This document shows, piece after piece, positions 10,689 to 50,133 of a stretch of DNA of 64,000 bases (the first letter of the stretch is position 1; each line of letters starts with the position of its first letter). The position numbers and the translations under genes are program-made. Below the pieces are notes generated by a model, which saw only the letters and a program-made list of their open reading frames with translations, ran no database searches and was not told the DNA's origin. The stretch spans positions 2,183,001 through 2,247,000 of the forward strand of contig NZ_CP078143.1 of assembly GCF_019891395.1 (NCBI RefSeq), in the 5' to 3' direction. Source of the DNA: Nitratireductor kimnyeongensis (GTDB lineage: Bacteria; Pseudomonadota; Alphaproteobacteria; Rhizobiales; Rhizobiaceae).

Positions 10689-11015
10689 ATGTCCAACCGC
10701 ATTATTCTTGTACTCATTCTCGTGCCGTTGGCGGTAATCATCATCGCGCTGGCTGTTGCCAATCGTGGTCTGGTGCCGTTCACGATCGATCCGTTCAATC
10801 CGGGTAATCCGGTCCTGACAGTCCAGTGGCCGCTCTTTGTCTATCTCTTCCTTTCCGTCGTTCTCGGGATGATCGGTGGCAGTCTAGCGACGTGGTTTCG
10901 CCAGGGGCGTTATCGACGCGATGCGCGTCAGCGCAAGAAAGAGGTCGACAAACTGCGCACGGCGCCCTCACCGTCCACTGGCAACGCGCCACACATCAGA
11001 CATTCCCCTTCCTGA
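10689..11015 (+). CDS. LapA domain (DUF1049) membrane protein
   Basis: A 108-aa inner-membrane protein with two predicted membrane segments, at residues ~4-24 (IILVLILVPLAVIIIALAVA) and ~43-67 (QWPLFVYLFLSVVLGMIGGS), and a basic cytoplasmic tail (RQGRYRRDARQRKKEVDKL). In E. coli the related LapA, with LapB, controls LpxC turnover and hence LPS synthesis; no lapB is present here, so that role is only suggested. It follows ihfB by 39 bases, probably in one transcript, and a hairpin closes the unit at 11029-11047. Confidence 0.8.
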   Translation: MSNRIILVLILVPLAVIIIALAVANRGLVPFTIDPFNPGNPVLTVQWPLFVYLFLSVVLGMIGGSLATWFRQGRYRRDARQRKKEVDKLRTAPSPSTGNAPHIRHSPS

Positions 11016-11028
11016 AAGTGTCTCTCAT

Positions 11029-11047
11029 AGGCTTGGCAACCAAGCCT
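11029..11047 (+). terminator. Hairpin after the sppA-ihfB-lapA unit
   Basis: Perfect 8-bp stem AGGCTTGG (11029-11036), loop CAA, CCAAGCCT (11040-11047), followed by a weak T-rich stretch (TGTGTT). It lies 14 bases after the LapA-domain stop codon and is probably a terminator, though the T-run is poor. Confidence 0.5.
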
Positions 11048-11098
11048 TGTGTTGCCTGAGAAATCTGCCTGTGGCAGAAGCGCGGGCATCGTAGCCCA

Positions 11099-12142
11099 AT
11101 GGCGGAGTCCCGATTGAAGCCTGCGCGCGCCAAACGCCGGAACGACGACCGGCGCAACCCTAAGAATGAAAAGGCGTCAAGCGCCCAGCTGCAGCGCCAG
11201 TCCGCGCCGGCTGCGCGCCCAACGCCACCCCGCCGCAAAGGCACACTGCCAGATGAGCGTTTGCCGGTCATTCTAGAAGTGTTGCCGAATGATGATTATG
11301 CGCTGCTCGATTCCGGCGGAGGGCAGAAGCTCGAACAGTACGGTCCCTATCGAATCGTGCGGCCGGAGGGGCAGGCGATCTGGCAACCTGCGCTTGGCCC
11401 GGCGGAATGGAACAGGGCGGATGCCATCTTTACCGGCGATACGGACGAAGAAGGCATGGGGCGCTGGCGCTTCCCCAAGGAGCCGTTGGGTGAGACATGG
11501 CCGATGCGCCATGAAGGGATCGACTATCTCGGACGATTTACCTCGTTTCGTCATGTGGGAGTATTTCCCGAGCAGGCGACCCACTGGTCCCATATGGAGA
11601 CGCTGGTGCGCGAGGCGCGCCGCCCGGTGAAGGTGCTCAATCTGTTTGGCTATACGGGGCTTGCTTCGCTGGTTGCGGCCCGTGCGGGGGCTGAAGTGAC
11701 CCATGTGGACGCTTCCAAGAAGGCGATTGGCTGGGCACGCGAGAACCAGGAAATGGCCAGGCTCGGCGACAGGCCGATCCGCTGGATTTGCGAAGATGCG
11801 GTGAAGTTTGCTGCACGCGAGGCGCGACGCGGCAATGCCTATGACATCGTTCTGTTCGACCCGCCCGCTTATGGGCGCGGGCCCAAGGGCGAGGTGTGGC
11901 AGCTGTTCGAGGATCTGCCCTATCTGGCTGATCTCTGTCGATCGATCCTGACACCCAACCCGCTGGCAGTGGTGCTGACGGCCTATTCCATCCGAGCGTC
12001 CTTTTTTGCCATCCACGCCCTGATGCGCGACACATTCGCCGGCGATGGTGGCCGGGTGGAATCGGGGGAACTCATTATCCGCGAGAAGTCGGCCGGCCGC
12101 GCCCTGTCCACCTCGCTGTTTTCGCGCTGGGTAGCATCATGA
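11099..12142 (+). CDS. Class I SAM-dependent rRNA methyltransferase (RlmI/RlmL-like)
   Basis: Predicted 23S rRNA methyltransferase. The first ~45 residues are a basic, disordered tail (KPARAKRRNDDRRNPKNEK). The Rossmann core begins near residue 175: VKVLNLFGYTGLASLVAARA is motif I with the SAM loop, THVDASKKAIGWAREN is motif II, and VLFDPPAYGRGPKGEV is the DPPxYG catalytic loop, as in RlmI, RlmL and RlmK-type m5C/m7G enzymes. The target base cannot be assigned. Its stop overlaps the start of the next methyltransferase by ATGA. Confidence 0.85.
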   Translation: MAESRLKPARAKRRNDDRRNPKNEKASSAQLQRQSAPAARPTPPRRKGTLPDERLPVILEVLPNDDYALLDSGGGQKLEQYGPYRIVRPEGQAIWQPALGPAEWNRADAIFTGDTDEEGMGRWRFPKEPLGETWPMRHEGIDYLGRFTSFRHVGVFPEQATHWSHMETLVREARRPVKVLNLFGYTGLASLVAARAGAEVTHVDASKKAIGWARENQEMARLGDRPIRWICEDAVKFAAREARRGNAYDIVLFDPPAYGRGPKGEVWQLFEDLPYLADLCRSILTPNPLAVVLTAYSIRASFFAIHALMRDTFAGDGGRVESGELIIREKSAGRALSTSLFSRWVAS

Positions 12143-17213: not shown

Positions 17214-17378
17214 CATTGAGAAGCAGAGCCGGGTTCCGCAGAAGGCGCTGCCGGCGGAGCGGGGACGGTGCCCGGCCCCAACACCCGCTTGCTGCTAACC
17301 TCCCGTGACGGTAGTGTCATAGTTCTGTCGCAAGCGATCATTATTTCAGCTTCAACGCCAAGCGGAGGAGCAACAGCT

Positions 17379-18254
17379 ATGCAGGGCATCACGCTGAACC
17401 GGACGCCTCTCGATGACAAGGCCGCAAGGCCGCCGCTCCCCGGCGATGCCGAGGACGCGCTTCTGGGCCGCATCGGCGCGCTCGAAGTGCGCCTTGCGCG
17501 CAGCGAGGAGGAGATTGCCGCGGCCCAGAGCATTCGCTACCGGGTTTTCTACAATGAGATGGGCGCGAAAGCGCCGCTCGGCGCGCTGAGTGCCGACCGC
17601 GATGCGGATGCATTCGATGCCGTGTGCGACCATCTTCTGGTGTTCGACACCGCGCTGCCGGGCGAGGATGTGGACCGCATCGTCGGCACCTACCGGCTTC
17701 TGACGCCGGAGGGCGCGCGCCGGGCCGGAAAATTCTACTCCGCAGACGAATTCGCCATCGAAACGCTGATGGCCCGCCATCAGGGCCGCCGCTTTCTGGA
17801 GCTTGGCCGCTCCTGCGTTCTGCCGCCCTACCGCACCAAGCGCACGATCGAGCTTCTGTGGCAGGGCATCTGGGCCTATTGTCGCAAGAAGCGCATCGAC
17901 GTGATGATGGGCTGCGCCTCCTTCCCCGGCGTCGTGCCGGCGGCCCATGCGGAGGCGCTCTCCTTCCTCGGGCATTTTTGCCAGGTGGAGGCCGAATGGC
18001 ATGTGCGCGCCGTCGCCAGCCGCTACGCCCCGCTCGACCTGATGCCGAAGGAAGCGATCCAGACCCGCTCGGCGCTTGCCGCCATGCCACCCCTCGTCAA
18101 AGGCTATCTGCGCCTCGGCGCACGCTTTGGCGATGGCTGCGTGATCGACCATGATTTCGGCACCACGGATGTGTTCGTGGTCCTGCCGGTGGAGGCGATC
18201 TCGGACCGGTATATTAATTATTACGGGGCCGAAGCGCAGCGTTTTGCGGCTTGA
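17379..18254 (+). CDS. olsB: OlsB-type ornithine N-acyltransferase (GNAT, hemolysin-like)
   Basis: Predicted L-ornithine N-alpha-acyltransferase, first step of phosphorus-free ornithine-lipid synthesis from 3-hydroxyacyl-ACP. ATG 17379 is chosen because AAGCGGAGGAG precedes it by about nine bases; a longer in-frame start at 17268 has no such site. Hallmarks are QSIRYRVFYNEM, IVGTYRLL, FLELGRSCV and a C-terminal extension ending NYYGAEAQRF. Length of 291 aa matches OlsB. The acyltransferase of the second step, OlsA, is not in the window. An alternative is another acyl-ACP-dependent GNAT of the same hemolysin-like group. Confidence 0.85.
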   Translation: MQGITLNRTPLDDKAARPPLPGDAEDALLGRIGALEVRLARSEEEIAAAQSIRYRVFYNEMGAKAPLGALSADRDADAFDAVCDHLLVFDTALPGEDVDRIVGTYRLLTPEGARRAGKFYSADEFAIETLMARHQGRRFLELGRSCVLPPYRTKRTIELLWQGIWAYCRKKRIDVMMGCASFPGVVPAAHAEALSFLGHFCQVEAEWHVRAVASRYAPLDLMPKEAIQTRSALAAMPPLVKGYLRLGARFGDGCVIDHDFGTTDVFVVLPVEAISDRYINYYGAEAQRFAA

Positions 18255-18286
18255 GGGGGCTGCCGGGAGGCCACTAATGTTGAATG

Positions 18287-18311
18287 CCACGCTAGTCAGT
18301 GACTAGCGTGG
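18287..18311. terminator. Perfect 11-bp hairpin over the DUF3037 stop codon
   Basis: CCACGCTAGTC (18287-18297), loop AGT, GACTAGCGTGG (18301-18311). It includes the DUF3037 stop codon at 18296-18298 and lies 33 bases after olsB. It could terminate both converging genes, but no T-run follows on either strand. Confidence 0.5.
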
Positions 18312-19132
18312 ATCTTGTCAGCCAAGCGATCTGCAAGGTTGTCCATCTCGCTCTCAGGAATAATCTCTGGATCAAGCGGGGCGTCGTGCAGAAATTCCAG
18401 TGCTCGTTTGTAAGCTGGTAACATTTTTTTGTCAGTGGGCTCCCCAACGAGAAAGTACGTCTTGAAGTTTTCTGTTCCTTTTGAGAGGCCAACTAAGGTG
18501 CCAACCCAACGGGCGGCTTTGTCCTGAACTCCCTCTTCCGTGGTCAAGTCGAAAGAAAGTGGTTGTATGCAATGCCATTTCCCATTCTTCCAAGCGTGTT
18601 CGAATTCAACTTCGTTTCGTGGTGATCGAATAACCTTTTTCTTAAATATACCTTCGATCTTTCGTTCCAATAGTTTATCGCGAAATGGCTTCCATATATC
18701 ACTATCAGCTCGACGGTGGACGGTTTCCTCATCGTATTGGCCGATAAAGCGTTGGTGGAGGTTTTCAAGCGTTTTATCGGGATCAGCCGTCACACCTGCA
18801 CCCATCTCACTCCAAACAAGAGAGCTGTCATCAGCAGCGACAACTTTGTGGCCAAACGAGAGTGCGTTCATATCCCTTGACAATAGGTCGTTTGTCTGGC
18901 CGTTTTTTGTGATCTTTGCGAATGCGCGTTCAATCTGTCGAATGTCGTGGCGAAGCGCCGAACCGCTAGCCGTGGGGAAAACCTTTGTGATCCGGCTAAG
19001 TGCTTTCTTGAATTTCGATCCGAGATAACCGCTTTTGGGTGCGTAGAGAATAACGCCGATGTTAATCTGTTCTCCGGCGATCGCGTCGTGTCGGTACCTC
19101 AATATGGCGTATGTGTATGGCTCTCTTATCAT
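18296..19132 (-). CDS. DUF3037 protein, partner of HipA-like kinase
   Basis: A 278-aa soluble protein with the DUF3037 signature at its N-terminus (YTYAILRYRHDAIAGEQINI, then GVILYAP). No catalytic motif is recognised and there is no signal peptide or membrane segment. ATG 19132 is used because it overlaps the stop of the HipA-like kinase gene as ATGA (19129-19132), so the two are translationally coupled; the upstream in-frame start at 19162 lies inside that gene. Local GC drops (one 60-base line near 18600 has 21 G/C), unlike the ~60-65% of the flanking genes. DUF3037 genes often neighbour small HipA-like kinases in other bacteria, as far as I recall. Function unknown; a regulator, antitoxin or kinase substrate would all fit. 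Confidence 0.8.
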   Translation of the reverse strand: MIREPYTYAILRYRHDAIAGEQINIGVILYAPKSGYLGSKFKKALSRITKVFPTASGSALRHDIRQIERAFAKITKNGQTNDLLSRDMNALSFGHKVVAADDSSLVWSEMGAGVTADPDKTLENLHQRFIGQYDEETVHRRADSDIWKPFRDKLLERKIEGIFKKKVIRSPRNEVEFEHAWKNGKWHCIQPLSFDLTTEEGVQDKAARWVGTLVGLSKGTENFKTYFLVGEPTDKKMLPAYKRALEFLHDAPLDPEIIPESEMDNLADRLADKIHASH

Positions 19133-19935
19133 GACAGCACTCTTTCGACCTCTCGGATGCAATGATCAATCTGATCCCTGACCCTTTTAATATGTTCTAA
19201 CGCCTCGGTTATGAAAGGGCGAACCCCATCCCATTCGCTTGGGAGTACAGCGTCATATTGCGCCAACCTCACATCTGACAAGTCTGCCCACTGAGCTCTT
19301 ATTGGCGTAAGGTCGAGTTCTCTTTTTCCCGATAGCTGTTGAGCAAAAATGTGTTCACTGTCGGCCCCATAATTGCACATCATGGCAAGGTTGCCTGGCG
19401 ACCATGGTTCACAACGGGGAAACAGCTTCATCCGAAAACGAAATGCACTCTCGTGATCGATCAACCGCCAGAGCTGATCCTTTACGAGCATGTTCGAGTT
19501 CCTCGGACTACGGTCACTGTTACCTATAAAGCCGTCGAACGCCAATACCGATATCGCCTGATCGATCTGATTTCTAGATAGTCGATCAGAGGGAAGCCAT
19601 CGTCTCCATTGTACTCCGGCGTGTTCTGAGCCGAACGCTACAGGGCACGAATTTTGGAGGCGCATCTTTAGCGAAGGATCGGTCACCGCTTCGAGAAAAT
19701 CTCTGTCAATTCTCACCAAAAAAGGTTTACACACCGGTAATCCTAAATCCGCAGCCAAAAGAGATCCGATTAATTCGTTTGCAAGGCCTTCGATACTGCA
19801 TTCAGGGCCATCTGAAACCTTCAGAACGATCTCGTGTTCATTTTCAAGGTTATCCAAAACTGCTGCTCTAAGTGGTTTTGTTCTTCCGACTTCTGTCGGA
19901 CGGTCAAGGCGGCTTAATCTCGTTTCACAGATCAC
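19129..19935 (-). CDS. Small HipA-like Ser/Thr kinase domain protein
   Basis: A 268-aa kinase-fold protein of the short HipA-like type. Visible active-site elements: Lys39 in EIVLKVSDG (ATP), Glu54 in LANELIGSLLAADLGLP, the catalytic loop GNSDRSPRNSNML (138-150, with Asp141 and Asn146), and the metal-binding Asp160 in LIDHESAF. It lacks the HipA N-subdomain 1, and no HipB-like helix-turn-helix gene is adjacent. Start is a GTG at 19935 with GGGAG about ten bases upstream. It is coupled by ATGA to the downstream DUF3037 gene. HipA relatives phosphorylate tRNA synthetases or other translation factors; the target here is unknown. Codon use is more AT-rich than neighbours, suggesting acquisition. 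Confidence 0.82.
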   Translation of the reverse strand: MICETRLSRLDRPTEVGRTKPLRAAVLDNLENEHEIVLKVSDGPECSIEGLANELIGSLLAADLGLPVCKPFLVRIDRDFLEAVTDPSLKMRLQNSCPVAFGSEHAGVQWRRWLPSDRLSRNQIDQAISVLAFDGFIGNSDRSPRNSNMLVKDQLWRLIDHESAFRFRMKLFPRCEPWSPGNLAMMCNYGADSEHIFAQQLSGKRELDLTPIRAQWADLSDVRLAQYDAVLPSEWDGVRPFITEALEHIKRVRDQIDHCIREVERVLS

Positions 19936-20240
19936 AGCGCCCCGCTCCCGATTTCCTCTGGATCATATGCTCCCCCCACCCCATCGGATGTTTAGTATCC
20001 GATAATGTGACGGGAATATAAAAATATGTCCAACATTAGATGTACTCGCAGCGTCGGAAAATTGATTAATAACTGGCTTGAAATTTTCTCAGGTACTGTG
20101 GTGTACCAAGGGGGAGAAAGCCGATGCAAGTACACTCACTTAGTGGCTAGCCATTCAAGCTTTAGGCCTATCTAGCGCTGCCTATGGTCGTCTTGAAGTC
20201 CGCTTTATCGTAAAATTCCTCTACCGCTATCACTCCCCCA
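19936..20240. other. AT-rich intergenic region upstream of the HipA-like gene (305 bases)
   Basis: No ORF of note. It carries a short palindrome at 19983-20003 and AT-rich sequence (20004-20100) suited to a leftward promoter. The right end abuts the 3' end of maeB. No att-like direct repeat or tRNA remnant was recognised. Confidence 0.55.
19983..20003. promoter_or_regulatory. Operator-like palindrome upstream of the HipA-like kinase
   Basis: ATCGGAT (19983-19989), seven bases, ATCCGAT (19997-20003): a perfect 7-bp inverted repeat 48 bases before the kinase start codon. Placement suits an autoregulatory operator near the promoter; the binding protein is unknown. Confidence 0.45.
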
Positions 20241-22526
20241 TCACCCCCCGGCATTATAAGCCGCAATCGCCGCCATGTTCACGATATCGGAATCCTTCGC
20301 GTTGAGCGAAACCACCTGAACAGACTTGTTCAGCCCCACCAGAAGCGGGCCGATGACGGTGGAGCCGCCCAGTTCCTGAAGCATCTTCGTGGAGATGGAG
20401 GCGGAGTGGAAGGCAGGCATGACCAGCACGTTGGCCGGGCCCGACAGGCGGCAGAAGGGATATTGCTGCATCAGGTCCGGGTTCAGCGCCACGTCTGCGG
20501 CCATCTCGCCATCATATTCGAAATCGACCCGGCGCTTGTCGAGGATCTTCACCGCCTCCTGCACACGCTCGGAGCGTTCGCCCGGCGGGTGGCCGAAGGT
20601 GGAATAGGCGAGCATCGCCACGCGCGGCTCATAGCCCATGCGGCGGGCCTGCCCTGCGGCCTCCTCGGCAATGTCGGCCAGCTCCTCGGAATTGGGCATG
20701 TCGTGCACCGCCGTGTCGGCCACGAGCACGGTGCGCCCGCGGCACAGCGCCAGCGTGACGCCGATCACCCGGTGGCCGGGGCGCGCGTCGATCACGCGGC
20801 GCACATCGTCGAGCACGGTGGAATAGTTGCGCGTCACGCCGCTCACCATCGCATCCGCATCGCCCAGCGCCACCATGGTGGCGGCGAAGTGGTTGCGGTC
20901 GTTGTTGATCAGGCGCTGCGCATCGCGGAAGAGATAGCCCTTCCGCTGCAGGCGCTCATAGAGATAGTCGGCATAGATGCTGTTGCGGCGCGAAAGCCGC
21001 GCATTGATGATCTCGATGCCGGATTTGGAAAGATCCACGCCCGCCTGCCGCGCCGTCTCACGGATCTGCTCTTCCCGGCCGAGCAGGATGGCGGTGCCGA
21101 GCTTCTGGTTCACATAGGAGGCGGCAGCCCGCATCACCTGTTCTTCCTCGCCCTCGGCGAAGACCACACGCTTGGGCTGGCGGCGCACCCGATCGTAGAT
21201 GCGCTGGAGCGTCGAGGCGAGCGGGTCGCGGCGGGCCGAAAGCTCGTTTTCGTATTTCTGCATGTCGAGGATGGGGCGGCGGGCAACGCCCGAATCCATC
21301 GCCGCCTTTGCGACAGCCACCGGCACCGCCGAGATGAGGCGCGGATCGAACGGCACGGGGATGATGTAGTTGGGGCCGTATTTGGGGCGGTTGCCCTGAT
21401 AGGCGGCGGCCACATCGTCCGGCACGTCCTTGCGGGCAAGCTCGGCCAGCGCCTCGGCGGCGGCCACCTTCATCGCGTCGTTGATGGTGGTCGCGCGCAC
21501 ATCGAGCGCGCCACGGAAGATATAGGGGAAGCCGAGAACATTGTTCACCTGGTTGGGATAGTCCGAGCGACCCGTCGCCATGATGGCGTCGGTGCGGATT
21601 TCGGCCACTTCCTCCGGCGTGATCTCCGGGTCCGGATTGGCCATGGCGAAGATGATCGGGTTTTTCGCCATGGATTGCACCATGGCCGGCGTCAGCGCGC
21701 CCTTGGCCGAAAGGCCGAAAAACACATCCGCCCCTTCCAGCGCCTCGGCCAGCGTACGCCTGTCGGTTTCGACGGCATGAGCGGATTTCCACTGGTTCAT
21801 GCCTTCCTCGCGGCCCTTGTAGACCACGCCCTTCGTGTCGCAGAGGAAGACGTTTTCCGGCGCGAGACCAAGCGATTTGGCAAGCTCGATACAGGCGATA
21901 CCGGCAGCCCCCGCGCCATTGCAGACAAGCTTGGTCGTCTTGATGTCGCGGTCGGTGAGGTGCAGCGCGTTGATGAGGCCGGCGAGCGCGATGATGGCCG
22001 TGCCATGCTGGTCGTCATGAAAGACGGGGATGTCCATCAGCTCGCGCAACTGGCTTTCGATGATGAAGCACTCGGGCGCCTTGATGTCTTCCAGATTGAT
22101 GCCGCCGAAGGAGGGGCCGAGCAGCTTGACGCAGTTGACGAAGGCGTCGGCGTCTTCCGTGTCGACTTCCAGATCGATGGAATCCACGTCGGCGAAGCGT
22201 TTGAAAAGGACGGACTTGCCCTCCATCACCGGCTTGGAGGCAAGCGCGCCCAGATTGCCAAGGCCGAGGATCGCCGTACCGTTGGAAATGACGGCCACCA
22301 TGTTGCCGCGCGTGGTGTAGTCGAAGGCGCGGCTCGGGTCTTCGGCAATGGCCTGAACGGGCACGGCCACGCCCGGAGAATAGGCGAGTGACAGGTCGCG
22401 CTGTGTCGCCATCGGCTTTGTGGGGGTGATTTCCAGCTTGCCGGGTCTGCCGGATGAGTGGAAGTCCAGCGCTTCCTGCGGGCTGACGGATGGTCCCTGA
22501 CGTTCGGACTTTTTATCGTTGGGCAT
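20241..22526 (-). CDS. maeB: NADP-dependent malic enzyme with C-terminal PTA-like domain
   Basis: Oxidative decarboxylation of malate to pyruvate. The N-terminal ~430 residues are the malic enzyme: LSLAYSPGVAVPVQAIAEDP, HDDQHGTAIIALAGLINAL, and NAD(P)-binding VCNGAGAAGIACIELAKS. The C-terminal ~330 residues form a phosphotransacetylase-like domain (RVVFAEGEEEQVMRAAASYV) that is regulatory rather than catalytic in known MaeB/Tme proteins. ATG 22526 gives 761 aa, with GGAGG upstream; a longer frame to 22739 is unsupported. It is divergent from mutS. NADP versus NAD preference is inferred from the gene context, where rhizobial tme sits beside mutS. Confidence 0.92.
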   Translation of the reverse strand: MPNDKKSERQGPSVSPQEALDFHSSGRPGKLEITPTKPMATQRDLSLAYSPGVAVPVQAIAEDPSRAFDYTTRGNMVAVISNGTAILGLGNLGALASKPVMEGKSVLFKRFADVDSIDLEVDTEDADAFVNCVKLLGPSFGGINLEDIKAPECFIIESQLRELMDIPVFHDDQHGTAIIALAGLINALHLTDRDIKTTKLVCNGAGAAGIACIELAKSLGLAPENVFLCDTKGVVYKGREEGMNQWKSAHAVETDRRTLAEALEGADVFFGLSAKGALTPAMVQSMAKNPIIFAMANPDPEITPEEVAEIRTDAIMATGRSDYPNQVNNVLGFPYIFRGALDVRATTINDAMKVAAAEALAELARKDVPDDVAAAYQGNRPKYGPNYIIPVPFDPRLISAVPVAVAKAAMDSGVARRPILDMQKYENELSARRDPLASTLQRIYDRVRRQPKRVVFAEGEEEQVMRAAASYVNQKLGTAILLGREEQIRETARQAGVDLSKSGIEIINARLSRRNSIYADYLYERLQRKGYLFRDAQRLINNDRNHFAATMVALGDADAMVSGVTRNYSTVLDDVRRVIDARPGHRVIGVTLALCRGRTVLVADTAVHDMPNSEELADIAEEAAGQARRMGYEPRVAMLAYSTFGHPPGERSERVQEAVKILDKRRVDFEYDGEMAADVALNPDLMQQYPFCRLSGPANVLVMPAFHSASISTKMLQELGGSTVIGPLLVGLNKSVQVVSLNAKDSDIVNMAAIAAYNAGG

Positions 22527-22621
22527 GTCGGCTTGTTTCCTCCGGGAGACGGGCTCTGGCTTATGCTTTCTGTGGAGTTTTGCCAGTGACGGGTGCATAA
22601 GGCTACACTTTTGCCCAGTAA

Positions 22622-25390
22622 ATGGCCAAGCAGATTGAAGCTGTTGATTTGAAGCCAGTACAAAGGCCGGGGGAGCCCTCCTTGAACGACGAAACGCCGA
22701 TGCGCCAGAAGGCTTTGGAGGCCGCCGCCGGGGCGACACCCATGATGGCGCAGTACATCGAAATCAAGATGGCCAATCCCGATTCGCTCCTGTTTTACCG
22801 CATGGGCGATTTCTACGAGCTGTTTTTCGACGATGCGGAGGTGGCAAGCCGGGCGCTGGGCATCACGCTTACCAAGCGCGGCAAGCATCAGGGCGACGAC
22901 ATTCCCATGTGCGGCGTGCCGGTCCATGCGGCCGATGATTATCTGCAAAAGCTGATCGGTCTTGGCCATCGCGTCGCCGTCTGCGAGCAGATGGAAGACC
23001 CAGCCGAGGCCAAGAAGCGCGGCTCGAAATCCGTGGTGCGGCGCGACGTGATCCGGCTGGTCACACCGGGCACCATCACCGAGGAAAAGCTGCTCGACCC
23101 ATCCGAGGCCAATTACCTGATGGCCCTTGGCCGGGTGAAGGGCGGGGATGAGAGCCTTGCTCTCGCCTGGATCGACATTTCCACCGGCGCATTCCGCGTC
23201 GCGCCGACGCGGCCCGACCGGCTTCTGGCCGATGTGCTGCGCATCGACCCGCGCGAGCTGATCGTGCCGGAGGCGGTCTATTACGACGAGGCTTTTCGGC
23301 CCGCCTTCGATGTTCTGGGCCGGGTGGCCAATCCGCAACCGGCCAACATGTTCGATTCCGCCTCCGCCGAAATGCGCCTGACGCGCTTTTACGGTGTGGC
23401 GACGCTGGAAGGCTTTGGCCGCTATTCCCGCGCCGAGCTTTCGGCCATTTCCGGTGCTGTCGCCTATGTGGAGAAGACGCAAAAGGCCGAACGTCCGCCG
23501 CTTGGCCGCCCGGAGCGTGATGACGAGGGAGCGAGCCTCTTCATCGACCCGGCCACCCGCGCCAATCTGGAGCTTGGCCGTACCTTGTCCGGCAGCCGCG
23601 AGGGCAGCCTTGCCAAGGCCATCGACCGCACGGTGACGGGCGCGGGGAGCCGGCTTCTCTTCGAGCGGCTCATGTCGCCGCTCACCGATCCGGAAGCGAT
23701 TGGCGGGCGGCTCGATGCGGTCTCCTTCTTCCTCGCCGAACCCGGCCTGCGCGAGGATGTGCGCCGGCTCTTGAAAGGCGTGCCGGACATTGCCCGCGCG
23801 CTCTCGCGGCTGGCGCTCAACCGTGGCGGCCCGCGCGACCTTGGCGCGCTCGCATCCGGTTTTGAGGCGGCCCATGGCGTGGCGGAGCTGCTTCAGGGCA
23901 AGGACGCGCCTGCCGAAATCGCCGCCGCACTGTCCGGCATTGCCGGCCTGCCTCTGGATTTCGCCGCCCATCTGTCCCGCGCGCTTTCCGACGAGCTTCC
24001 GCTCTTGAAACGCGATGGCGGCTTCATCCGTGCCGGCTACAATGAAGAGCTCGATGAGATGCGCGCGCTGCGCGACCAGTCGCGCCGGGTGATCGCCGAG
24101 ATGGAGCGCCAGCTTGCCGAGGAGACGGGCGTCAAGTCGCTCAAGATCCGGCACAACAATGTGCTTGGCTATTATATCGAGGTCACGGCCAACAATGCCG
24201 GCGTGATGACCGGCACGGACGAGGCGAAGGCGCGCTTCATCCACCGCCAGACCATGGCCAACGCCATGCGCTTCACCACGACGGAGCTGGCCGAGCTTGA
24301 AACCAAAATCGCCAATGCCGCCGACCGCGCCCTGCAGATCGAGCTTGGTGTCTTCGATCAACTGCTGTCCGAAGCCGTGGCCGCCGCCGACCGCATCCGC
24401 GCTGCCGCCGATGCTCTGGCTGTGCTCGATGTTTCGACCGCACTTGCCGAACTGGCGGAAGCGGAAAACTACTGCCGCCCGCAGGTGGATGGCAGTCTCG
24501 ATTTTCACATTGAGGGCGGTCGACATCCCGTGGTCGAGCAGGCGCTGCGCAAGCAGTTGGCCGAGCCCTTCGTTGCCAATGATTGCGACCTCTCGCCCAC
24601 GGGCAAGGAGGATGCGGGAGCGATCTGGCTTCTGACCGGCCCGAATATGGGCGGTAAATCGACCTTCCTGCGCCAGAACGCGCTGATCGCGGTGATGGCG
24701 CAGATGGGCTCCTTCGTTCCTGCATCTGTCGCCCGCATCGGCGTGGTGGATCGCCTGTTCAGCCGCGTTGGCGCATCCGACGATCTGGCGCGTGGCCGCT
24801 CGACCTTCATGGTAGAGATGGTGGAAACGGCGGCGATCCTCAATCAGGCGGGGCCGCGTGCGTTGGTGATTCTTGATGAGATCGGCCGCGGCACGGCGAC
24901 CTTCGATGGCCTGTCCATCGCCTGGGCAGCGGTGGAATATCTCCATGAACAAAACCGCTGCCGCGCGCTCTTCGCCACGCATTTCCACGAGATGACCGCG
25001 CTTTCGGAAAAGCTCGGACGGCTCTCCAACGTCACCATGCGGGTGAAGGAATTCGAGGGGGACGTGGTGTTCCTGCACGAGGTGGGACGCGGCGCGGCCG
25101 ACCGTTCCTACGGTGTGCAGGTGGCCCGCCTTGCCGGCCTGCCCCATGCGGTGGTGGAGCGGGCGCGCGCAGTGCTTCAGCAGCTTGAGGAGGGTGAGAC
25201 TTCCGGCAAGGCGTCGAAACTAATCGATGATCTGCCGCTTTTCTCAGTGGCGGCGAAGCAGGAAGCGAAAGCGTCGAAGACGCCGGACCGCGTTGGCGAA
25301 GAACTGCTCGCGATCAATCCGGATGATCTGACCCCACGCGAAGCGCTGGAGGCGCTTTACCGGCTGAAGCAGCTTGCGGCCGGGAAATAG
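22622..25390 (+). CDS. mutS: DNA mismatch repair protein MutS
   Basis: Recognises mismatches and small loops and recruits MutL. The mismatch-binding domain has the Phe-X-Glu motif in [17 protein letters not shown] (residues ~59-75); connector, lever and clamp domains follow. The ATPase has Walker [16 protein letters not shown], Walker [17 protein letters not shown] and the ATFHFHE-type segment [15 protein letters not shown]. Length of 922 aa is normal for rhizobia. No clear Shine-Dalgarno precedes ATG 22622; a later ATG at 22700 (MRQKALEAA) is an alternative start. glnD lies downstream. Confidence 0.95.
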
Positions 25391-41333: not shown

Positions 41334-41477
41334 ATCGGTCTCCCTATTTCTTGACCCAACGCGGGGTCGTGCAATTGGTTCAGAGGGGTCTGGCGACCAT
41401 CAGAGCCTGTCGGTTTTCGCGTTTGTGGACTGTCTTTCGCGGATCGCAGGCTAGAACGACATTTGCCCTCTTGCCAG

Positions 41478-49353: not shown

Positions 49354-50133
49354 ATGCGTATTGCAATGTTGTCCACGCTTGCCCTTCTGATGCCCGTGCT
49401 GGCTGCGCGCGCACAGGACCACATCCCGGAGAATATCCAGATCGGCCTGTCCACGGATCAGGTCTCGATCACCTCTGACTTCAGCGGCGCGGAGCTCACG
49501 ATATTTGGTGCGCTAGACAACGCCGACCCACTGATTTCCCGGCAGGGGCGCTATGATGTTATCGTGGTTCTGGAAGGGCCGCCGCGCCCCGTGACGGTCC
49601 GCAAGAAAACCCGCGTGGCGGGCATGTGGATCAACACGGAATCGGTGATCTTCCGGGATGTGCCCGCCTCTTATTCCATGGCTCTCACCCGCGCGCCACA
49701 GGATATCACGGCTCCCGATGGCTATCGGCAATTGGCGCTGGGAGCGGACAATCTTCATCTTCAGCCGCTGGATTCCGATGGCGATCCGAAAACGATCGAG
49801 GAATTCACGCGTGCGTTGCGTGAACGCAAGGAAGCCGAGGGGCTGTACTCGACGCGGGCGGGCGCGGTGCGCTTCCTGTCGCAAAGCCTTTTCAGGGCTT
49901 CGCTGAGGCTTGCTCCTAATGTCGCGGTCGGCACGCACAGGGCACGCGCCTTCCTGTTTCGCAATGGCATGTTCCTGCGCGAGACCTCGGCCCAACTCAC
50001 CATTCGCAAGGCGGGGCTTGAACAGCGTCTCTATCAGTTCGCCCACCAGAACAGCATGCTCTACGGCATTCTTTCTGTGTTGATCGCCATCGTCACAGGC
50101 TGGCTCGGACGATTGATTTTCCGCAAGGATTGA
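49354..50133 (+). CDS. TIGR02186 family membrane protein, TauE/SafE partner
   Basis: A 259-aa protein with a cleavable signal (MRIAMLSTLALLMPVLAARA, cleaved near residue 20), a periplasmic domain and one C-terminal membrane segment (MLYGILSVLIAIVTGWLGRL, ~233-252). It is the family almost always found directly after TauE/SafE-type exporters in alphaproteobacteria, as here. It probably assists the exporter from the periplasmic face. No enzymatic motif was seen. Confidence 0.85.
   Translation: MRIAMLSTLALLMPVLAARAQDHIPENIQIGLSTDQVSITSDFSGAELTIFGALDNADPLISRQGRYDVIVVLEGPPRPVTVRKKTRVAGMWINTESVIFRDVPASYSMALTRAPQDITAPDGYRQLALGADNLHLQPLDSDGDPKTIEEFTRALRERKEAEGLYSTRAGAVRFLSQSLFRASLRLAPNVAVGTHRARAFLFRNGMFLRETSAQLTIRKAGLEQRLYQFAHQNSMLYGILSVLIAIVTGWLGRLIFRKD

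Follow-up and report, generated by a model that had tools for sequence, protein, structure and literature searches.

We analyzed a stretch of 64,000 nucleotides from Nitratireductor kimnyeongensis (assembly GCF_019891395.1, contig NZ_CP078143.1, positions 2,183,001 to 2,247,000 of the forward strand), hereafter the window, and focused on a pair of minus-strand genes that encode a HipA_2-like kinase and a DUF3037 protein. The pair lies between the olsB-like gene and tme, which are convergent and both point into the gap that hosts it:

17268-18254, plus strand: olsB-like GNAT acyltransferase (PF13444), left flank
18296-19132, minus strand: DUF3037 protein of 278 amino acids (aa), predicted restraining partner (antitoxin); PF11236, PDC-M66B
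19129-19935, minus strand: HipA_2-like kinase of 268 aa with a GTG start, predicted toxin/effector; PF20613, PDC-M66A
20241-22739, minus strand: tme, NADP-dependent malic enzyme, right flank

The kinase gene comes first, and the ATG of the DUF3037 gene overlaps its stop codon as ATGA. Spacings of 41 bp and 305 bp separate this two-gene unit from the flanking genes, and the window's gap hosts no third gene between olsB and tme. The GC content over the pair is 0.47-0.50, compared to approximately 0.65 in the flanks. An earlier reading of the same DNA, hereafter the original prediction, had described the two overlapping genes, the local drop in GC content and the lack of both a HipA N-subdomain and a HipB gene. 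Coordinates, frames and composition bear this out, with olsB and tme as the neighbors; Pfam returned no further family in either protein at E-value ≤ 1, neither a HipA N-subdomain model nor a helix-turn-helix (HTH) antitoxin.

Family assignment and published relatives

The kinase matches PF20613 (HipA_2) with 52.7 bits (Pfam cut-off 27) and its partner matches PF11236 (DUF3037) with 70 bits (cut-off 22.6), and an NCBIfam scan of both proteins at E-value ≤ 1 was empty. Among the PADLOC models for phage defense candidate M66, PDC-M66A aligns with residues 10-268 of the kinase (positions 18-270 of 270 in the profile, E-value 3.7e-57) and PDC-M66B with residues 5-276 of the DUF3037 protein (positions 3-277 of 281, E-value 1.4e-78). 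Both matches are near full length and the two genes are adjacent with the kinase first, and we found no difference from PDC-M66. Judged by its sequence, the pair is a member of the known PDC-M66/DS-6/HipAD system. Neither protein has a sequence relative of solved structure at E-value ≤ 1. At the DNA level the plasmid collection holds no relatives of the pair, and at the protein level we found four plasmid records and no phage record.

The active site of the kinase is complete. Lys39, Glu54, Asp141, Asn146 and Asp160, all listed in the original prediction, are each invariant (33/33) once 32 of the 39 detected homologues are aligned with the window's kinase. A loss of Asp141 or Asp160 on full comparison, which would have spoken against the prediction, was not seen. 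The AlphaFold2 model (pLDDT 91.4) has a kinase fold.

Relatives of the pair have been studied experimentally. In PMC12548924, a PDC-M66 pair beside Retron-Sda1 provides retron-independent defense against phage Bas51; deletion of its kinase abolishes defense, deletion of DUF3037 is toxic, and the conclusion drawn by the authors is that DUF3037 neutralizes the kinase, a toxin. The pair is named DS-6 and renamed HipAD in PMC13092281, which cites Brenes and Laub 2025 for it and reports that a catalytic kinase residue is required for defense. The original prediction had proposed a kinase-first two-gene toxin/antitoxin or defense-like module with DUF3037 as its control subunit or its substrate. By analogy with the findings on relatives (PMC12548924, PMC13092281), and given the matches to PDC-M66A and PDC-M66B, the module and the control subunit would apply to the window's pair. 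These two proposals were correct yet already known, because the system had been named and tested elsewhere in print; the substrate option is not supported.

The window's pair shares the PDC-M66 kinase and DUF3037 with the Retron-Sda1 pair, which lies next to a type III retron, whereas the window's gap has no further gene. With HipAD/DS-6 it has in common a HipA-family kinase and a DUF3037 protein bearing a second domain. Unlike HipBA, it has no HTH antitoxin HipB, its neighbor is DUF3037 and the kinase gene is first; unlike HipBST, it is a two-gene unit with neither HipS nor HipB genes, and its partner is unrelated by Pfam.

Pairing of the kinase and DUF3037 in other genomes

DUF3037 was found in 23 of 398 genomes sampled across the phylum, and in 21 of these 23 a HipA_2-like kinase above threshold lies directly upstream (18 of 23 with a profile built from the kinase alignment). 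The upstream kinases of L144 (split over two frames), L153 and L155 score over the Pfam cut-off of 27, and those of L154 (17.7 bits) and L156 (26.1 bits) score under it. Within the class, 2 of 385 genomes carry DUF3037, namely the window's own, also counted among the 23 of the phylum, and L106, whose upstream kinase reaches 57 bits. The kinase is also present in all four plasmid loci, in 21 of 24 loci on viral contigs (L117 and L127 begin at a contig end and L112 has none), and in four of six loci on genome contigs, in L003 over part of its length only. The recurrent pairing that the original prediction had proposed to check thus holds in 21 of 23 phylum genomes plus two weaker cases, with three exceptions outside that sample:

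L005:5980-6852: kinase-less long-form DUF3037, following an HsdM fragment
L007:5983-6855: kinase-less long-form DUF3037, following a HerA-like helicase
L112:4974-5864: long-form DUF3037 with no adjoining kinase

At L144:1896-2685 (minus strand), the kinase upstream of DUF3037 lies in two reading frames, as expected from a broken gene or a sequencing error.

The neighborhoods of the relatives were listed for 12 loci, a non-random choice. According to Pfam, the genes preceding the pair are HsdM and HsdS in L108, HsdM with an interrupted stretch in L131 and HsdS in L160, and the pair of L002 lies beside HsdR and HsdS; L107 and L110 show a similar type I restriction setting by eye. Phage integrases were detected by Pfam near the pairs of L113 and L124. 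This placement after hsdS resembles that of the effector PrrC in EcoprrI.

The olsB-tme gap in Nitratireductor and beyond

The kinase and DUF3037 occur together in one of ten Nitratireductor genomes, that of the window. On the second replicon of this genome, a 12-kb piece shows 93% identity over 93% of its length to a plasmid from Nitratireductor rhodophyticola. The gap that hosts them contains a low-GC insert in seven of the ten genomes and is empty in three:

G000: the window's kinase-DUF3037 pair
G001 (L039): AAA_15/AAA_21 ATPase and 135-aa protein, 2226 bp
G003 (L041:2878-4012, minus strand): HTH and M78 peptidase pair with PADLOC capH and capP matches
G004 (L042): AAA protein of 610 aa, OLD-like TOPRIM match below threshold
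G005 (L072): DUF3800 protein, visible from the tme side only because the contig ends
G006 (L044): 245-aa protein without family
G008 (L046): 467-aa protein with a MauJ-like end
G002, G007 and G009: empty gaps of 103-252 bp, with no open frame of 70 aa

All seven inserts have a GC content of 0.41-0.49, and the remaining listed open frames in the gap of G003 do not exceed 117 aa. When the inserts were compared to each other by tblastx at 1e-6, no matching pair was found among the seven, with that of G005 seen in part; the sole similarity is a 58-bp stretch just past olsB in G001 and G006 (78%, E-value 5e-4). Four of the seven have PADLOC matches (the window's pair, L039, L041 and L042). Neither the open frames of the inserts nor their Pfam matches include an integrase, transposase or tRNA, although no dedicated tRNA or transposon scan was run on the inserts. 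The left block ends at window positions 18254-18256 in G001, G002, G003, G004, G007 and G008, at 18263 in G009 and at 18271 in G006, hence at or shortly past the stop codon of olsB, and collinearity resumes at 20235-20257, around the stop codon of tme. The gap resembles a hotspot in that the same flanks enclose unrelated cargo in several relatives, with seven of ten congeners occupied. We met no earlier description of it as a cassette site, although no literature search was aimed at the site. This variable setting, along with the pairing count and the domain modularity described below, is an addition to the known system.

The rest of the window served as a control. Its 64 kb are collinear with G001 and G008, with only two breaks of at least 300 bp, one at the olsB-tme gap and the other at position 41403. 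We also inspected 11 inserts from five further sites, leaving out the breaks at 754, 2656, 8907, 16901, 29317, 37794 and 46280 and a 3677-bp insert of G007 at 50133. The inserts found in relatives at 41403 and 10958 are mutually homologous, with a GC content of 0.60-0.68, and a lone 906-bp insert in G003 has a GC content of 0.53.

The order lspA-kinase-olsB-(gap)-tme-mutS-murJ-trpS is present in Sinorhizobium meliloti Ak57, where olsB is annotated as a GNAT acetyltransferase and the olsB-tme gap measures 327 bp, with no annotated gene. The original prediction had pointed to the S. meliloti gene order and regarded the pair as an insertion; since Ak57 keeps the order around a gap with no annotated gene, the pair is indeed an insertion relative to the conserved order.

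In the family survey, 151 genomes were searched, and 101 olsB and 87 tme places were entered by hand; genomes with no high-identity tme on the same contig, or with none among the matches listed, were left out by eye. The two genes are convergent within 12 kb in 61 of the 101 entered genomes, 58 of them outside the genus, and we took 28 of these 58 spacers, chosen for length. Most of the 28, read by eye, contain GC-matched genes that are not defense-like. Pfam analysis of the proteins from four of them returned families of toxin-antitoxin type in three other genera:

L099:215-924: Rv0623-like factor and PIN
L100:155-544: PIN
L103:353-595: DUF1902

Because the family spacers mostly hold GC-matched genes that are not defense-like, the changing low-GC, defense-like cargo looks like a feature of the genus and not of the family.

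Domains of the DUF3037 protein

The DUF3037 domain occupies residues 8-130 of the 278-aa protein and a second domain follows at approximately 143-278; the AlphaFold2 model has pLDDT 89.6 and pTM 0.54. In the domain comparison, the DUF3037 domain is constant and the second domain optional, which is evidence for modular partners. The second domain tentatively resembles a nuclease fold of the PD-(D/E)XK type, minus the catalytic lysine. This lysine, expected two residues past the third-strand acid, was not found in a register (190/192) inferred by eye. Position 192 carries L or I in all 56 rows of one alignment, and L, I, M or A in all 17 domain-bearing rows of another. We also considered DUF1829 as the second domain: Pfam was silent and a profile comparison returned a probability of 0.1%, but the comparison, which relied on just two full DUF1829 proteins and a partial third, is too shallow to exclude it.

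We measured the correlation of evolutionary distances in 35 pairs of a kinase and a long DUF3037 protein. These were drawn from 44 pairs that remained once 14 loci had been set aside in advance (broken, weak, duplicate, kinase-less or at contig ends), and only long partners were kept. The correlation is 0.91 between the kinase and the first domain, 0.86 between the kinase and the second, and 0.86 between the two domains, and 0 of 2000 permutations reached each of these values. Two genes inherited together as a unit would yield this pattern as well, and the correlated distances therefore do not show contact.

Proposed mechanism and alternative explanations

The two genes are intact and overlapping, the kinase active site is complete, the pairing with DUF3037 is frequent and the site carries unrelated low-GC inserts in most close relatives. 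These observations support the view that the pair is probably a copy of a PDC-M66/HipAD-type anti-phage toxin-antitoxin system, in which the kinase toxin would be held by DUF3037 and released on infection. The kinase would probably be made first, from one transcript with DUF3037, and the DUF3037 protein would keep it inactive, probably by direct binding. Once set free by phage infection, the kinase would phosphorylate a target in the cell and halt growth ahead of phage spread. A sensing or DNA-contacting role is proposed for the second domain of the DUF3037 protein. That the window's copy works as the published relatives do, including the trigger and the phosphorylated target, is inferred by analogy with them.

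Several observations weigh against this interpretation. The tested DS-6B has a second domain named DUF1829 in print, whereas the window's partner has no Pfam match to DUF1829 at E-value ≤ 1. Solitary DUF3037 genes occur (L005, L007 and L112), so that the tie between this domain and the kinase is not universal. The fold scores of the kinase are tied among PI4-kinase, CtkA, CotH and HipA, so that a HipA-type target cannot be assumed; this comparison was a VIA-align re-examination of Foldseek candidates, in which folds missed by Foldseek cannot appear and the first domain of the DUF3037 protein is barely covered. Of the sister inserts at the site, only a part look defense-like: PADLOC returned nothing for L044, L046 and L072, and L042 matches general ATPase models only.

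A plain addiction or stress toxin-antitoxin, with a kinase that slows growth, a loss that poisons the cell and no phage role in this host, is an unlikely explanation. HipBA-type kinase toxins are known for growth arrest, and in two other genera the olsB-tme gap contains PIN-domain genes of toxin type (L099 and L100). However, the tested relatives defend against phages (PMC12548924, PMC13092281), some relatives lie in restriction operons or beside phage integrases, and the same site in sister species holds ATPases with matches to defense models.

It is very improbable that the pair is a host regulatory unit of ordinary physiology with DUF3037 as the kinase substrate. Such coupling is conceivable, as DUF3037 genes of the phylum sample almost always come right after the kinase gene, but the distribution is patchy: one of ten congeners has both genes, and among 397 genomes of the order at least 6 have the kinase (at most six candidates scored per genome). 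The low GC content of the pair and the toxicity of DUF3037 deletion in a relative (PMC12548924) also argue against it. That the pair is the inactive or decayed remnant of a defense island, in line with the lack of any other gene inside the gap, is highly improbable, as both frames are intact, the active site is complete and the DUF3037 protein has entries of 100% identity on five contigs.

We tentatively propose a wider model, which we consider possible rather than probable. In this genus, the olsB-tme gap may serve for the exchange of cassettes that each hold a single immune operon. Whole cassettes would be swapped from one stop codon to the other; as no integrase, transposon or tRNA was seen within them, homologous recombination between the conserved flanks would be the probable route. 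The pair would be one such cassette, DUF3037 its constant kinase-restraining module, and the optional, catalytically dead nuclease-fold domain a phage sensor.

The chromosome of an alphaproteobacterium would house a recently validated type of kinase-based anti-phage system, in a short variable site whose cargo in sister species consists of unrelated ATPase, metalloprotease/HTH and DUF3800 genes. With DUF3037 constant and the second domain optional, the distinction between a kinase-binding and an infection-sensing part becomes directly testable. With three inserts devoid of PADLOC matches, the olsB-tme site is also a simple place to mine for defense genes. The 245-aa protein of L044, the 467-aa protein of L046 and the DUF3800 protein of L072 are candidates for untried defense genes.

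Non-coding elements and minor observations

Three further features surround the pair:

18287-18298 and 18300-18311: perfect inverted repeat with 12-nt arms, 100% complementary, 1 nt between the arms, spanning the DUF3037 stop
19925-19966, minus strand: 13-codon leader open reading frame, which overlaps the start of the kinase gene out of frame; possibly a chance feature
19966-19989 and 19997-20020: imperfect inverted repeat upstream of the kinase with 24-nt arms, 71% complementary

Both repeats had been noticed in the original prediction as an upstream palindrome and a hairpin over the end, the latter with 11 bp instead of the 12-nt perfect arms found here. The hairpin over the DUF3037 stop folds with a z-score of -3.1 compared to shuffles and is possibly a 3' RNA-stabilizing element; a role as terminator was rejected, as it has no T run. 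The upstream repeat has a perfect core of 7+7 bp with a 7-nt loop, and its fold z-score is -4.2 over 61 nt chosen around it versus -1.9 over the 110 nt before the start codon. It is a candidate operator or 5' hairpin. In the 110 nt upstream of the kinases of 23 relatives, one region has a perfect stem of at least 7 bp (8 bp, of different sequence) and two others fold with z-scores below -2. With a single relative bearing such a stem, unlike in sequence, the idea of a conserved operator was rejected. Scans for promoters and terminators yielded no excess over shuffled sequences.

Elsewhere, at window positions 41403-41446, G001, G008 and G007 carry a gene-sized stretch of approximately 1.19 kb that is missing from the window. 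At 10958-11103, a homologous stretch of approximately 1.0-1.3 kb, also missing from the window, is present in G002, G005, G006, G007 and G009.
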